Assembly: GCF_024679095.1 (NCBI RefSeq)
Contig: NC_066571.1
Location: 2,235,561-2,299,560, forward strand
Direction: 5' to 3'
Source of the DNA: Eriocheir sinensis
Taxonomy: Eukaryota; Arthropoda; Malacostraca; Decapoda; Varunidae
Length of the DNA stretch: 64,000 bases
The notes below the pieces were generated by a model. That model worked only from the letters and a program-made list of their open reading frames with translations. It did no database searches and was not told the origin of the DNA. Below, in pieces: positions 9,988-49,800 of the stretch (position 1 is its first letter; every line of letters begins with the position of its first letter). A program made the translations under genes and the position numbers.

Positions 9988-11035
9988 GCCCGTACTTATA
10001 AAGAGTATGTTTCGCTTATGTGAGGCATAAATCAAGAAAATGGCGGACACCGAGACATAAGGGAAGCATAACCCTTAGGTTTCAACTAAGCGGAACATAA
10101 ACTGACTCGCCAGCTGCGCGCGGGGTGGAGGTAACATTGCATTCCTTAGGTCGACCTAAGCGAGGCATAACAGTCAAGATGGCGGAGGTAGTGGGTGCGC
10201 GTCCGCGGCAGCTGAGGACTTTTCGGGCACGAAGAGACGTCCTTGATGAGCTTCCGGACCCGGAATTGATCAAGAGGTACCGCCTGGACCGTGCAGGGAT
10301 ACTCTTCGTGACCGATTTGGTGCGTGAGGCCTTGACTGCTCCTACAAACAGGAACCAAGCCCTCTCCCCTGAGATGAAGGTCCTCATAACACTGAGGTAT
10401 CTTGCTGCGGGCAAAATGCAGCAGTGTAGCAGCGACGACTTGGGGCCTTCACAACAGACCGTCAGCAGGGTCACCCGGGAGACTGTGTACGCCCTTGCGG
10501 TAGCTGTTCCTGCTGCTGCTGCTGCTGATGTGGCTGGGGGTGAGGCTGTGGTCCCTCCTGCTGTTGCTCCTGGTGTAGCTGCTGCTGCTGTTGCTGCTGA
10601 CCTCGCTGGCTGCTGAGGGGCTCTAGAGGTCGGGGCTGGCTGTCCATGGCTGCTGACTGCCAGGTTGAAGCTCGCGGGAATGTTTGTTTACATGTTTGAG
10701 GGGCTACGTCCTTAATTTTATCATTATTCCATGTGATGTTGGTCTATGCATCGCCAACAATACTCGAAAATACTTTATTTTATTTTATACATATTTCCAA
10801 TACGTCAATATGCTTTTAACATCAAAATTATACCAAATTCCAACATTTTATTTTGAGTTGGTATCCCTTTCTTAGGTGCAGCTCAGGGGTTGGCAACGAT
10901 GTACTAATACTCGCTTATGTCGAGCTGGTTATGTTGAGGGGGTGAAACATAAGGAGGGGGGTTATGTCTCGTCATTGTTAATACTCGGATATGTTTCAGT
11001 TTACGTCTCACATAAATTTCTTTATAAGTACGGGC
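9988..11035 (+). mobile_element. PIF/Harbinger-type DNA transposon, deletion derivative
   Basis: The 1048-bp element has terminal inverted repeats GCCCGTACTTATAAAGA (9988-10004) and its complement (11019-11035), flanked by a 3-bp direct repeat AGG (9985-9987 and 11036-11038). Three-base target duplication is typical of Harbinger. TTATG/CATAA motifs cluster near both ends (about 10010-10170 and 10910-11015) and may be transposase-binding repeats. A perfect palindrome CTTAGGTCGACCTAAG lies at 10145-10160, with a near copy at 10075-10091. The element holds only the N-terminal part of a transposase, so it cannot move alone. Confidence 0.8.
10179..10616 (+). pseudogene. HARBI1-like transposase, N-terminal exon only
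   Basis: ATG at 10179 in CAAGATGGCG opens a frame of 145 codons. Residues 29-107 match the N-terminal region of PIF/Harbinger nucleases (HARBI1 family): LIKRYRLDRAGILFVTDLV (30-48), then NRNQALSPEMKVLITLRYLA (57-76), and a helix-turn-helix-like GPSQQTVSRVTRE (89-101). HARBI1-family nucleases are DDE enzymes of about 350 residues; the catalytic domain is absent here. Homology stops after residue 107 exactly at GCG|GTAGCT, a plausible splice donor. Reading on gives an alanine-rich tail from a CTG/GCT triplet repeat up to a TGA at 10614, which is probably intron. An in-frame upstream GTG exists, but the ATG suits the family better. Confidence 0.75.
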
Positions 11036-15834: not shown

Positions 15835-16077
15835 TTAAGGAAGATTTAACCCGGTAGCTGCGGGGATCATGTTTCTTAAAGGCCCCTCTAAGCGAGAAAA
15901 ATGAAAAAAATCATCACTCACGCAAACCATTTCGTAATATATATATACGCATTTGTGATCAGTTTATGCATCATCTATTTTGGGGGTTTATATCATGGCA
16001 AAAATGTGGCCCGTCGCTGCTACACGGTAAAGCCACAAATTTGGCCCGTCGCTGCTACCGGGTTAAGGAAGATTTAA
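15835..16077 (+). mobile_element. TTAA-flanked MITE (piggyBac-like), copy 1
   Basis: The element reads TTAA-CCCGGTAGCTGCGGGG (from 15846) to CCCGTCGCTGCTACCGGG-TTAA (to 16066). The termini are inverted repeats (CCCGGTAGC) and begin with CCC next to TTAA, as in piggyBac. The right end carries a duplicated terminal piece (GGCCCGTCGCTGCTAC twice). Unusually, a 15-bp direct repeat TTAAGGAAGATTTAA flanks it (15835-15849 and 16063-16077), longer than the 4-bp TTAA expected. A second copy lies inverted at 46107-46288. Confidence 0.7.
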
Positions 16078-21684: not shown

Positions 21685-22908
21685 TTAACCCGTCCGCTGC
21701 GATTGCCACGGATTTCGCCTTCACTGGTAGCCTGGTAACATATAGTCCCAGGTCTTTCCCTGCCTCTGTGGTGGATAGTGGCGTGTTTCCCATGTGGTAT
21801 TGGTATGCTGGATATCCCTTCACTGGTAGTCTGGTAACATATAGTCCCAGGTCTTTCTCTGCCTCTGTGGTGGATAGTGGCGTGTTTCCCATGTGGTATT
21901 GGTATGCTGGATATCCCTTCACTGGTAGTCTGGTAACATATAGTCCCAGGTCTTTCTGCCTCTGTGGTGGATAGTGGCGTGTTTCCCATGTGGTATTGGT
22001 ATGCTGGATATCCCTTCACTGGTAGCCTGGTAACATATAGTCCCAGGTCTTTCTCTGCCTCTGTGGTGGATAGTGGGGTGTTTCCCATGTGGTATTGGTA
22101 TGCTGGATATCCCTTCACTGGTAGCCTGGTAACATATAGTCCCAGGTCTTTCTCTGCCTCTGTGGTGGATAGTGGCGTGTTTCCCATGTGGTATTGGTAT
22201 GCTGGATATCCCTTCACTGGTAGTCTGGTAACATATAGTCCCAGGTCTTTCTCTGCCTCTGTGGTGGATAGTGGCGTGTTTCCCATGTGGTACTGGTATG
22301 CTGGATATCCCTTCACTGGTAGCCTGGTAACATATAGTCCCAGGTCTTTCTCTGCCTCTGTGGTGGATAGTGGCGTGTTTCCCATGTGGTATTGGTATGC
22401 TGGATATCCCTTCACTGGTAGCCTGGTAACATATAGTCCCAGGTCTTTCTCTGCCTCTGTGGTGGATAGTGGCGTGTTTCCCATGTGGTATTGGTATGCT
22501 GGATATCCCTTCACTGGTAGCCTGGTAACATATAGTCCCAGGTCTTTCTCTGCCTCTGTGGTGGATAGTGGCGTGCTTCCCATGTGGTATTGGTATGCTG
22601 GATATCCCTTCACTGGTAGCCTGGTAACATATAGTCCCAGGTCTTTCTCTGCCTCTGTGGTGGATAGTGTTCTGCCTCTGTGGTGGATAGTGGCGTGTTT
22701 CCCATGTGGCATTGGGTAGACTGAGGTCTTTCTCTGCCTCTGTGGTGGATAGTGGCGTGTTTCCCATGTGGTATTGGTATGCTGGATATCCCCCTCCAAG
22801 GTGCATGACTTTACATTTTTCTTCATATGAATTGTAGCAGCCACATTTTGTTCCATTCTTGTAGCTTGGTGTACTCTTTTTGTAGGAAATTCGCGGTCAA
22901 GGGGTTAA
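21685..22908 (-). mobile_element. TTAA-bounded LINE-RT fragment with 99-bp tandem expansion
   Basis: Bounded by TTAA at 21685-21688 and 22905-22908. On the minus strand it starts TTTAACCCCTTGACC, then encodes a broken CR1/L2-type reverse transcriptase segment: LQEWN, KCKVMHLG, YQYHMGNTPLSTTEAEKDLG. The part from GYPAYQYHMG to VTRLPVK is repeated about ten times with a 99-bp period (33 residues) between about 21720 and 22680. The single-copy form is at 29496-29743. Open frames on both strands come from the period being a multiple of three; small deletions near 21955 and 22670 shift the frame. No active-site part of RT is present. Confidence 0.8.
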
Positions 22909-29495: not shown

Positions 29496-29743
29496 CTTAA
29501 CCCGTCCGCTGCGACTGGCATGGATTTGGCTTTCACTGGTAGCCTGGTAACATCAACTCCCAGGTCTTTCTCTGCCTCTGTGGTGGATAGTGGAGTGTTT
29601 CCCATGTGGTATTGGTATGCTGGATTTCCCCTCCCAAGGTTCATGACAACATTTTTCTTCATTGAATTGTAGCAGCCACTTTTTGTTCCATTCCTGCAGC
29701 TTGGTGATGTCTTCTTGTAGGAAATCTGCAGTCAAGGGGTTAA
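29496..29743 (-). mobile_element. TTAA-bounded LINE-RT fragment, single-copy form
   Basis: 248 bp between TTAA (29496-29499) and TTAA (29740-29743). The minus strand encodes part of a CR1/L2-type reverse transcriptase thumb region: FLQEDITKLQEWNKKWLLQF, then after a frameshift LGRGNPAYQYHMG and LSTTEAEKDLGVDV. Both ends start with CCC inside TTAA and are imperfect inverted repeats (CCCGTCCGCTGC and CCCCTTGACTGC). RT homology fills almost the whole interval, so a small TTAA element seems to have captured LINE sequence. It is the unexpanded counterpart of 21685-22908. Confidence 0.75.
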
Positions 29744-40231: not shown

Positions 40232-40918
<687 letters not shown>

Positions 40919-40928
40919 GCAGCGTGAC

Positions 40929-42317
40929 TTGATATATAGGCAGATTATCTCTCCCTCGAGTGAAAGGAAATTGCAGTTAGTTGTGCCTGCGAGATACAGA
41001 GGGGCTGTTCTCAAGTTAGGTCACAGTACTGCTCTAGGCGGTCACATGGGAAGAACCAAGACACTCGCTCGCGTACAAGCACATTTTTATTGGCCAGGGA
41101 TAGGCCAGGAGGTAGCTAGATATGCGTGGTCGTGCGATGTGTGTCAAAAGACTATAGATAGGGGTCGGGTAAAGCCAGCTCCCTTACAGCCACTGCCCAT
41201 TATTGACTCTCCCTTGGAAAGAGTAGCGGTAGATTTGGTGGGGCCGATCGAGCCCCGAGCCAGCGATGGCTCCCGGTATATTCTTACCCTTGTAGATTTT
41301 GCCACGCGTTGGGCAGAAGCGGTGCCGCTGAAGAATATTGAAACGCAAACTGTGGCTGAAGCTCTCATGACTATATTTTGTCGAGTAGGTATACCCAGAC
41401 AAATACTGAGTGATCGGGGTACTCAGTTCACCTCAGGGATGATGGAGGAAGTACTCCGTCTACTAGCGTGCAAAGGGTTACGTACCACGCCCTACCATCC
41501 CATGGGGAATGGACTGTGTGAACGTTTTAACGGCACACTTAAGAAAATGCATAAACACATGGCTGCCGAACAACCCAAGGAATGGCCTAGGTACCTGGCT
41601 CCTTTGTTGTTCGCGTACAAAGAAGCGCCACAGAGCTCCACCAGGTTCTCCCCGTTTGAGCTAATGTATGGTAGGTCGGTTAGAGGTCCGCTTCAGCTAC
41701 TGAGAGAGCTGTGGGATGACAATGTTCCGGACCCGGAGGTCAAGACCACATACCAGTACGTGTTAGATTTTGGCAACAGGCTGAGAGAGACCTGTAACAT
41801 TGCTAAGGAGGAGTTACTCAAAGCAAAACAAGTACAGAAAAGTTATTACGACAGGAAGGCAAAGTTGCGTAAGCTCAGTGAAGGAGAACAGTGTCTAGTT
41901 TTGCTTCCCACAGCGAGCAACAAGCTGTTAGCTCAGTGGAAGGGACCTTACGAGGTTCAGGAGAAGGTTAATGACCTTAATTATATTCTCCTGGTTGACG
42001 GACACCCAAAACGGTTCCACATCAACATGTTGAAACAATACTACCGGCCAGATGCAGCCACAGGTTACTTGCGAGACAGTGAGTATGATGATGAGAAGGT
42101 GATGCGTCTAGAGTTAGTTAAAGCTCACTATTCTCAGCCTCAGACCGTAGATGTGGGAGCGGCAGTAGTAATACAAGATGATGAGGACGGCGAGGCTCCT
42201 CTCACTGTCTTTGCTAGACAGACAGAGTCAGTGCATGACGTGACGTTGGGAGGAAAGTTAACCCCAGAGGAGAGGGAACAATTAGCATCGTTGCTAGAGC
42301 GTCTGGTAGCAGAGTAA
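40929..42317 (+). pseudogene. Ty3/gypsy-type integrase, intact frame; element broken
   Basis: 462 codons from TTG 40929; the open frame extends upstream, so there is no real start. Integrase inserts the element's cDNA into the genome. Seen: zinc-binding HHCC (H32, H39, C69, C72), a DDE catalytic core with D102 (VAVDLVGP), D162 (ILSDRGTQF) and E198 (GLCERFNG) at D-X35-E spacing, and a C-terminal GPY-type domain (QWKGPYEVQEKV to FHINMLKQYYRP). After an acidic linker the end LTPEEREQLASLLERLVAE resembles the segment that comes just before reverse transcriptase in gypsy polyproteins. A TAA stops it there and no RT or RNase H follows. Protease lies directly upstream. The order protease-integrase-(RT) is that of Gmr1-like elements rather than of most gypsy elements. 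No LTRs are seen. Confidence 0.85.
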
Positions 42318-46106: not shown

Positions 46107-46288
46107 TTAACCGTGTAGCAGCGACGGGCCAAATTTGTGCCATGATATAACCCCCAAAAATAGATGATACCTAATCTGATCACAAATGCTTTGATATATG
46201 AAATGGTTTGTGTGAGGGGTGATTTTTTCTCATTTTTCTCGATTGGAGGGACCATTAAGAAACATGATCCCCGCTGCTACCGGATTAA
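46107..46288 (-). mobile_element. TTAA-flanked MITE (piggyBac-like), copy 2
   Basis: TTAA at 46107-46110 and 46285-46288. Ends CCGTGTAGCAGCGACGGGCC and, inverted, TCCGGTAGCAGCGGGGATCA. The body matches copy 1 (15846-16066) in reverse: CATGATATAACCCCC-AAAATAGATGATA, CTGATCACAAATGC, AAATGGTTTGTGTGAG and AAGAAACATGATCCCCGC. Confidence 0.75.
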
Positions 46289-48747: not shown

Positions 48748-49800
48748 AGGGTAGAACGGGAGGAAGGAAGGGAGAGAGGAGGAAAAGAAGGAAGGAAGGG
48801 AGAGAGGAGGAAAAGAAGGAAGGAAGGAAGGGAGGAGGTAGGAGGATGGATTGATGTATACAGGGAGGAAGGAAACATGGAAACATGGAAACGCAGGCAA
48901 CAGAAAGCCTATTGGCTCATTACGAGGTTGCCCGCTTTGGTGATTTAATCTGCTCGACAGCCTGGGGCCTGGGGAGCAGATGAAAGCACCTCGACATTGA
49001 GGAGCAGATGAAAGCACCTCGATATTGAGGAGCAGATGAAAGCAACTCAATATTCAGTTTACTCCCGACGCAGGGAAGTGACGGTCGATTCTATATTTGA
49101 AGGAGTTGATAGTATTCGCATTTACTACTTCTGAAGGAAGATTGTTCCAGTGACGGATGACTCGGTTTGAAAAGAAACTCCTTCCGATGTCTGTGTTACA
49201 TCGACTAGACTGAATGGGTAAACCGTTATTTCTAGTTCTTAGGTTGGTTTGCAATTCAAAGAAATTGGAGTAATCGACGTTATTGATTTTTTTTTTTTTT
49301 TTATATACTTGAAGACTTGAATCATAGTCATAGAGGAGGAAAAGAAGGAAGGAAGGGAGGAGGGAGGAGAATGGATTGATGTATACAGGGAGGAAGGAAG
49401 GGAGAGAGGAGGAAAAGAAGGAAGGAAGGAAGGGAGGAGAGAGGAGAATGGATTGATGTATACAGGGAGGAAGGAAGGGAGAGAGGAGGAAAAGAAGGAA
49501 GGAAGGGAGGAGGGAGGAGAATGGATTGATGTATACAGGGAGGAAGGAAGGGAGAGAGGAGGAAAAGAAGGAAGGAAGGAAGGGAGGAGGGAGGAGAATG
49601 GATTGATGTATACAGGGAGGAAGGAAGGGAGAGAGGAGGAAAAGAAGGAAGGAAGGAAGGGAGGAGGGAGGAGAATGGATTGCTGTATACAGGGAGGAAG
49701 GAAGGGAGAGAGGAGGAAAAGAAGGAAGGAAGGAAGGGAGGAGGGAGGAGAATGGATTGATGTATACAGGGAGGAAGGAAGGGAGGAGAGAGCAGGATGG
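48748..49800. repeat. 74-78-bp purine-rich minisatellite, split by a LINE
   Basis: Unit AGGGAGAGAGGAGGAAAAGA, AGGAAGGAAGGAAGGGAGGA, GGGAGGAGAATGGATTGATG, TATACAGGGAGGAAGGAA. Six near-identical copies lie at 49335-49800 and about 1.5 copies at 48748-48870; a LINE 3' end sits between. Minus-strand frames are artefacts. Confidence 0.92.
48871..49333 (-). mobile_element. CR1/L2-like LINE 3' end, 5'-truncated
   Basis: The minus strand encodes the last 90 or so residues of an RT polyprotein, ending at the stop at 49054: LRTRNNGLPIQSSRC, SNRVIRHWNNLPSEVV and NSFKYRIDRHFPASG, the familiar F-S-x-R-V-x-x-x-W-N-x-L-P C-terminal motif of CR1/Jockey-type LINEs. The 3' UTR holds three direct repeats of about 27 bp (GAGCAGATGAAAGCACCTCG on the plus strand, 48974-49045). 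It ends in CATGTTTCCATGTTTCC, an 8-bp tail repeat as in CR1-type elements. The 5' end is truncated inside the RT frame. Confidence 0.85.

Follow-up and report, generated by a model that had tools for sequence, protein, structure and literature searches.

How a piece of reverse-transcriptase (RT) gene comes to lie between two TTAA tetramers, within imperfect inverted ends, is the question raised by a short unit in the 64-kb stretch of DNA analysed here (the window). A preliminary description had placed the unit at 29496..29743 (248 bp) and taken it for a TTAA element that seemed to have captured LINE sequence. The TTAA bounds stand, with TTAA at 29497-29500 and 29740-29743, but the length does not: the unit runs from 29497 to 29743 and measures 247 bp (Table 1). 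We put at roughly 0.86 the probability that it is a copy of an RT-carrying, non-autonomous TTAA transposon, in which terminal arms became fused to a piece of CR1-type RT gene, the chimera being moved in trans by a TTAA-specific transposase and giving rise to tandem arrays by internal duplication.

Table 1. Positions within the window of the unit, its parts and the related elements
Feature	Position	Strand	Basis or remark
TTAA MITE copy, TTAA to TTAA	29497..29743	.	family consensus 249 bp
Left terminal repeat, TTAACCCGTCCGCTGCGA	29497..29514	+	motif TTAACCC-N5-CTGCG
Right terminal repeat, this copy TTAACCCCTTGACTGCAG, consensus TTAACCCCTTGACTGCGG	29726..29743	-	13/18 identical to left end
CR1-type reverse-transcriptase segment, element consensus nt 50-232	29546..29727 (approximate)	-	CR1 profile and LINE alignments
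Array form, TTAA-bounded, 99-bp internal tandem repeat (element nt 36-134), 9 junctions	21685..22908	.	
RT-free TTAA MITE, sister family, outside the unit	15846..16066	.	common terminal motif
RT-free TTAA MITE, second window copy	46107..46288	.	same family as 15846..16066

A dispersed family with borders at TTAA

Three words taken from the unit were counted in a genome of 1,765,103,840 bases (1.77 Gb; 2,158 contigs), whose contig C63 contains the window. The 18-base left-end word TTAACCCGTCCGCTGCGA, with up to one mismatch, gave 2,775 + 2,643 = 5,418 matches (1 for its backward control); an internal 22-mer with up to two mismatches gave 11,325 + 11,014 = 22,339 (control 0); and the 16-base right-end word GCAGTCAAGGGGTTAA, matched exactly, gave 844 + 803 = 1,647 (control 0). 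Since the controls yield 1, 0 and 0 against these counts, a chance origin of the family is excluded. Array junctions subtracted from repeat units, as counted by the internal 22-mer, leave about 9,000 elements in the genome, a rough estimate because the two words differ in mismatch tolerance. A consensus of 249 bp, uniform copies, 5,418 left ends and no transposase of its own give the family the properties of a MITE. From samples anchored at the left end, the right end or the inside, and confined to a few contigs, we assembled 47 copies that are full length and differ in their flanks; their mean distance is 6.4% to the consensus and 11.2% pairwise, and 34 of the 47, in this set chosen for full length, have exact TTAA at both ends.

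Borders were read in a sample drawn without choice by ends, namely 30 loci with exact matches to the internal word, all on contig C1, which comprise 26 distinct elements. The element starts at position 1-2 in 24/26 and ends at position 245-249 in 24/26, so that in this sample the ends do coincide with TTAA, as the preliminary description had proposed to check. TTAA is exact on the left in 21 of the 26 and on the right in 19, and a tetramer with one mismatch stands in its place in three on the left and four on the right. The misses are a deletion just inside the TTAA (L025), a copy lacking its left part (L036), a changed right tetramer (L014), an interruption by a tandem repeat (L016) and an assembly gap (L011). 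Truncated pieces also occur among right-end-anchored loci (L043 and L049), together with a lone 23-bp right end (L053).

For full copies of the element, the two flanks were fused across one TTAA, and the joined sequences were compared with the fetched loci and the window in search of element-free counterparts of the occupied sites. Five such joins (L021, L029, L062, L076 and L083) align across the joint to element-free sequence, at sites that are paralogous, not allelic. The L029 join matches at 78% and 69% and the L083 join at 69%, both within local repeats; the L062 join falls within a tandem array, many of whose units are uninterrupted (best 88%); the L076 join is matched, within its own locus, by an inverted copy (84%); and the L021 join matches repeat copies in L039 (79%) and L028 (71%). 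At the four joints that were viewed (L021, L029, L062 and L076), the element-free side holds one TTAA-like tetramer (CTAA, CTCA, TTGA, TTTG and similar) or a gap. The empty TTAA sites that the first reading had called for are thus represented by these five joins, and the sampled borders and paralogous sites together show the insertion at TTAA with TTAA duplication that characterizes piggyBac elements.

These observations bear on a rival account of the unit, in which it is no more than LINE sequence, both TTAACCC motifs being present by chance in the RT gene and the apparent borders lying inside a longer element. Copy similarity that ends at TTAA on each side (24/26), in place of LINE borders further out, and the absence of the whole unit from related sites both argue against it.

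We note that in L050 and L051 copies of the unit are split by another element, which starts CATAGCTGGGCA and has an 8-bp duplication, GGTATTGG, around the insert. Duplications of this length are known from hAT-type elements.

The CR1-type core and its limits

The RT core takes up 183 of the 249 bp of the consensus, or 61 residues (residues 6-66), and leaves arms of 49 nt and 17 nt; the inside had been described as almost entirely CR1/L2-type RT, of which the CR1-type identity is upheld and the near-total fill is not. In the window copy, small indels and a frameshift interrupt the RT segment. On the minus strand of the consensus a single frame, that of the RT, is open from end to end. Against this frame the Pfam RVT_1 model stays below threshold (E 0.02; 15 bits, cut-off 29.6), and a CR1-like RT profile scores 89.1 bits, over residues 6-66 only. 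The profile comprises 81 sequences (79 database proteins and two genomic LINEs), eight element-like proteins (P0001-P0006, P0024 and P0082) having been left out; most of its members were retrieved by a query made up of the core and LINE-like flanks, and because the core was in the query for the database members, the contrast that the profile draws between core and arms is to some extent inherent in its construction.

Scored against this profile, the arms (the outer 5 and 16 residues) do not rise above shuffled codons, either in register (P 0.46 and 0.49) or at the best of five shifts (P 0.59 and 0.33). We therefore reject the arms as RT gene sequence on the grounds of random-like CR1 profile scores, from a profile whose members were found with a core-containing query. 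A more independent witness of the limits, given how those database members were found, is L089, a CR1-type LINE located through its own 3' end, whose frame of 623 residues gives a gap-free alignment to residues 6-66 with 39% identity. A second genomic LINE (L092) shows 43% identity over the same residues and five further CR1 copies show 36-42%; all seven LINEs match residues 6-66, one of them (L139) from residue 4 and with a gap. Because both the profile and the LINE alignments are confined to residues 6-66, we place the core at element nt 50-232. L092 was recovered with a mixed LINE/element query, which gave 194 matches, of which 150 candidates were scored; among the seven loci fetched in this way (L090-L096), L093-L096 are copies of the element, and L090 enters our tree as an element row.

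The open frame offers some comfort to the view of the unit as a LINE stretch, in that a 249-bp consensus open throughout in the RT frame could in principle be RT from one end to the other. A second point in its favour is the hexamer GACTGC, which stands directly before the core in 5 of the 7 genomic LINEs and recurs in the element, whose right arm ends GACTGCG; a few nucleotides of the right arm may be LINE-derived, or this microhomology may have been used at capture. Neither point accounts for arms that are random-like under the CR1 profile, or for genomic CR1 copies in which TTAACC and GGTTAA occur in 0 of 7, in the core or up to 60 nt away. The preliminary description had asked whether parental LINEs lack the terminal motifs, and over this span those read here do. 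Together with a terminal motif that is also found in a MITE free of RT (see below), these results strongly disfavour the LINE-stretch account, which we regard as very improbable.

We return to the reading of the unit as an RT-carrying transposon. The core is the usual cargo of the family: among 26 loci chosen by their left end (L001-L008, L069-L071 and L074-L088), one (L086) meets an assembly gap and is unreadable, and the RT core is present in 25 of the 25 others. L072 and L073, selected through their right end, are left out of this set. These 25 carry one type of cargo only, and no RT-free version of exactly these arms occurs among them. That the core was captured is something we infer from the sharp borders of homology, as the donor LINE was not found, none of the seven LINE copies read exceeding 43% amino-acid identity. 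We also note that the window contains the 3' end of a CR1-type LINE at 49057-49284 on the minus strand. The other 149 scored matches to a 76-residue piece of this end all show 99% identity, suggesting that the LINE ending there spread very recently.

The RT piece does not appear to serve as a gene. Over the 47 full-length copies, substitutions at codon positions 1, 2 and 3 number 230/2637, 132/2585 and 128/2632, and the frame is open end to end in 21 of them; a protein function was rejected, there being no excess at third positions, and we regard the piece as passenger DNA with no protein product under constraint. The first of two protein searches returned 6 proteins resembling element copies (E <= 0.001); the second returned 85, most of them pieces of RT with 35-52% identity. 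One protein, P0024, is a predicted Eriocheir sinensis protein (LOC126993828 isoform X2) with 82% identity to the RT frame over 51 aligned positions; since it includes a stretch of the RT frame, the family seems to reside in Eriocheir sinensis. Annotation may accordingly mistake copies for LINE relics or even exons, as P0024, which includes part of one copy, illustrates. Phage records gave no match to the element, and viral contigs no match to one 22-mer.

Terminal ends and a candidate mover

The ends of the unit are imperfect terminal inverted repeats, the 18-base consensus ends being alike at 13 of 18 positions around the motif TTAACCC-N5-CTGCG; the CCC-type imperfect inverted ends noted at the outset are therefore genuine. 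A likeness had also been drawn between one end and the TTAA MITE at 46.1 kb. This likeness is recovered through the better-kept sister copy at 15846-16066, but not in the register in which it was first written. Read in the same orientation, both ends of that MITE match the left end of the unit at 14 of 18 positions each, and they match the right end at 14 and 12; one of them bears TTAACCC-N5-CTGCG unaltered, the other with a single change. A motif common to the unit and an RT-free MITE favours inherited transposon ends over accidental ones. More matches to this MITE family are present in the fetched loci (for example L080, L029 and L037).

The origin that we favour would have joined two arms of about 49 nt and 17 nt, already bearing the inverted ends TTAACCC-N5-CTGCG, to the 183-bp piece of CR1 RT. 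It is conceivable instead that the element was born de novo, a LINE segment with chance TTAACCC-like ends having been recognised by a resident transposase without any pre-existing transposon ends. A frame that runs open across the whole unit would fit such a birth, as would the presence of RT in all 25 readable left-end-anchored loci, where an RT-free copy with the same arms was not found, and the possibly LINE-like GACTGC of the right arm. The RT signal is nevertheless absent from the arms (5 and 16 residues), and the sharing of the terminal motif with the RT-free MITE (14/18) speaks for ends that were inherited; we judge a de novo birth to be improbable.

In our preferred account, a transposase acting in trans and specific for TTAA, most likely a piggyBac-type enzyme, would then have carried the chimera to thousands of TTAA sites. 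Potential sources of such an enzyme are plentiful, with at least 116 loci in the genome (L099, L105, L126, L127 and L135 among them) encoding a piggyBac transposase domain (DDE_Tnp_1_7; 116 scored from 1,408 first-look candidates), as against none in 14 control genomes, and many of these loci have long stop-free frames. CTGCG-type ends like those of the unit were found near none of 42 piggyBac-domain loci, two of which were read whole (about 4 kb) and 40 by 0.8-0.9 kb of 3' flank only, a scan that an end lying further from the transposase escapes. TTAACC words are nonetheless present where an end could lie in 9 of the 40 flanks, TTAACCCC, TTAACCCG, TTAACCGG and TTAACCCT among them, and are candidate ends. 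Of the description of the unit as a piggyBac-type MITE carrying RT, the RT-carrying TTAA MITE is borne out, and the piggyBac label draws on TTAA and the CCC ends only, with 0 of 42 transposase loci having ends of this kind.

The mover could in principle belong to another superfamily, such as Kolobok or Sola3, the latter also a superfamily of TTAA-specific transposases. TTAA targets are common to several superfamilies, and both the terminal bases of the unit and the 0 of 42 sampled piggyBac loci with these ends leave room for this. The piggyBac terminal motif is given as CC[C/T]T (PMC2872659); after the terminal TTAA the consensus of the unit reads CCCG and CCCC, and thus agrees in CCC but not in the T. 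Because the fourth terminal base is not T, we do not file the unit as a piggyBac member but only as one that works like one. Kolobok elements, on the other hand, share the TTAA target and are described in PMC6004289 with RR (often AG) as terminal bases, which the CCC ends of the unit do not match. With this mismatch and the candidate ends in 9 of 40 piggyBac flanks, we consider a mover from another superfamily unlikely, and the mover to be probably a TTAA-specific transposase of the piggyBac type.

Arrays and related systems

A second locus in the window had been thought to have the same borders, and it does, in the form of a tandem array with nine junctions (Table 1). An array-junction word gives 13,331 matches in the genome and its control none. 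In the fetched loci all junctions read GGATATCCC|TTCA, save one in L036 with one C fewer, in a fixed-word search that is blind to more divergent junctions. Because the junctions share one form, it is possible that the arrays had one origin and then spread. A single clade of array copies was also considered and is unsupported: in a weakly resolved tree (5 of 55 inner branches starred), eight array rows need 8 changes against a shuffled-label mean of 7.6.

We suggest that the 99-bp inner part, which is mostly RT, would have been tandemly duplicated in one or more copies to give the TTAA-bounded arrays. An imperfect direct repeat pairs element nt 26-38 with nt 126-138, 100 bp away (consensus GGATTTGGCCTTC and GGATATCCCCTCC). 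These repeats are a likely place of slippage, and the duplication probably proceeded by slippage or unequal exchange between them.

Each part of this element is of a known kind, and the combination appears to be a new variant. No paper on a TTAA MITE carrying CR1 RT was found among the open-licence literature matches listed; Repbase and most subscription papers lie outside that scope, so such an element may be published. The closest relatives in form are the coral CMITEs, which, according to PMC2872659, are likewise short and TTAA-bounded, with CC-type inverted ends, no transposase and reported tandem arrays. They differ in being about 100 bp long with a 75-base inside of unknown origin, whereas 183 of the 249 bp of our unit are CR1 RT, and in that the whole element is the array unit in corals and an internal part is the array unit here. 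Amplification of a MITE's internal segment into arrays has its counterpart in Xenopus, in Xmix/Xstir and miDNA4 (PMC6004289, PMC9659126, PMC12628747); a microhomology model has been proposed for the miDNA4 arrays, Xmix belongs to the T2 family (AGGRR ends, Kolobok-like) and miDNA4 to Tc1/mariner, and an RT origin is not mentioned for these repeats in the available portions of those sources.

The uptake and spread of foreign DNA by non-autonomous elements with terminal inverted repeats is known from the Pack-TYPE transposons of plants. Those elements are described as carrying coding DNA (PMC8903248, PMC13317346), whereas the unit is an animal TTAA element, present in thousands of copies, with a single fixed piece of a retrotransposon as its cargo. 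CR1-type LINEs, for their part, are the source type of the 61-residue core; the unit differs from them in having TTAA and inverted ends and no LINE 3' end, and it appears to move as DNA. Pieces of CR1 are also known in satellite DNA, the chicken HinfI satellite being CR1-related according to PMC9659126.

The family would provide a clear animal case of a DNA transposon that spreads a fixed retrotransposon gene fragment, which then seeded a dispersed tandem repeat, and its sharp borders and large set of copies make capture junctions and the birth of arrays directly testable. One might also imagine that the RT piece is more than ballast, and that a CR1 fragment dispersed over some 9,000 elements, and over array units in their thousands, feeds small-RNA silencing of CR1-type LINEs or otherwise aids the spread of the element. 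The coding sequence of a rival would then have become a working part of a DNA transposon; we hold this to be highly doubtful.

The window contains traces of other mobile elements as well, picked out by eye from the list of open reading frames. On the plus strand, a 475-aa open frame at 40890-42317 resembles the integrase region of a Ty3/gypsy-type retrotransposon, and an open frame at 10101-10616 resembles the N-terminal part of a PIF/Harbinger-type transposase.
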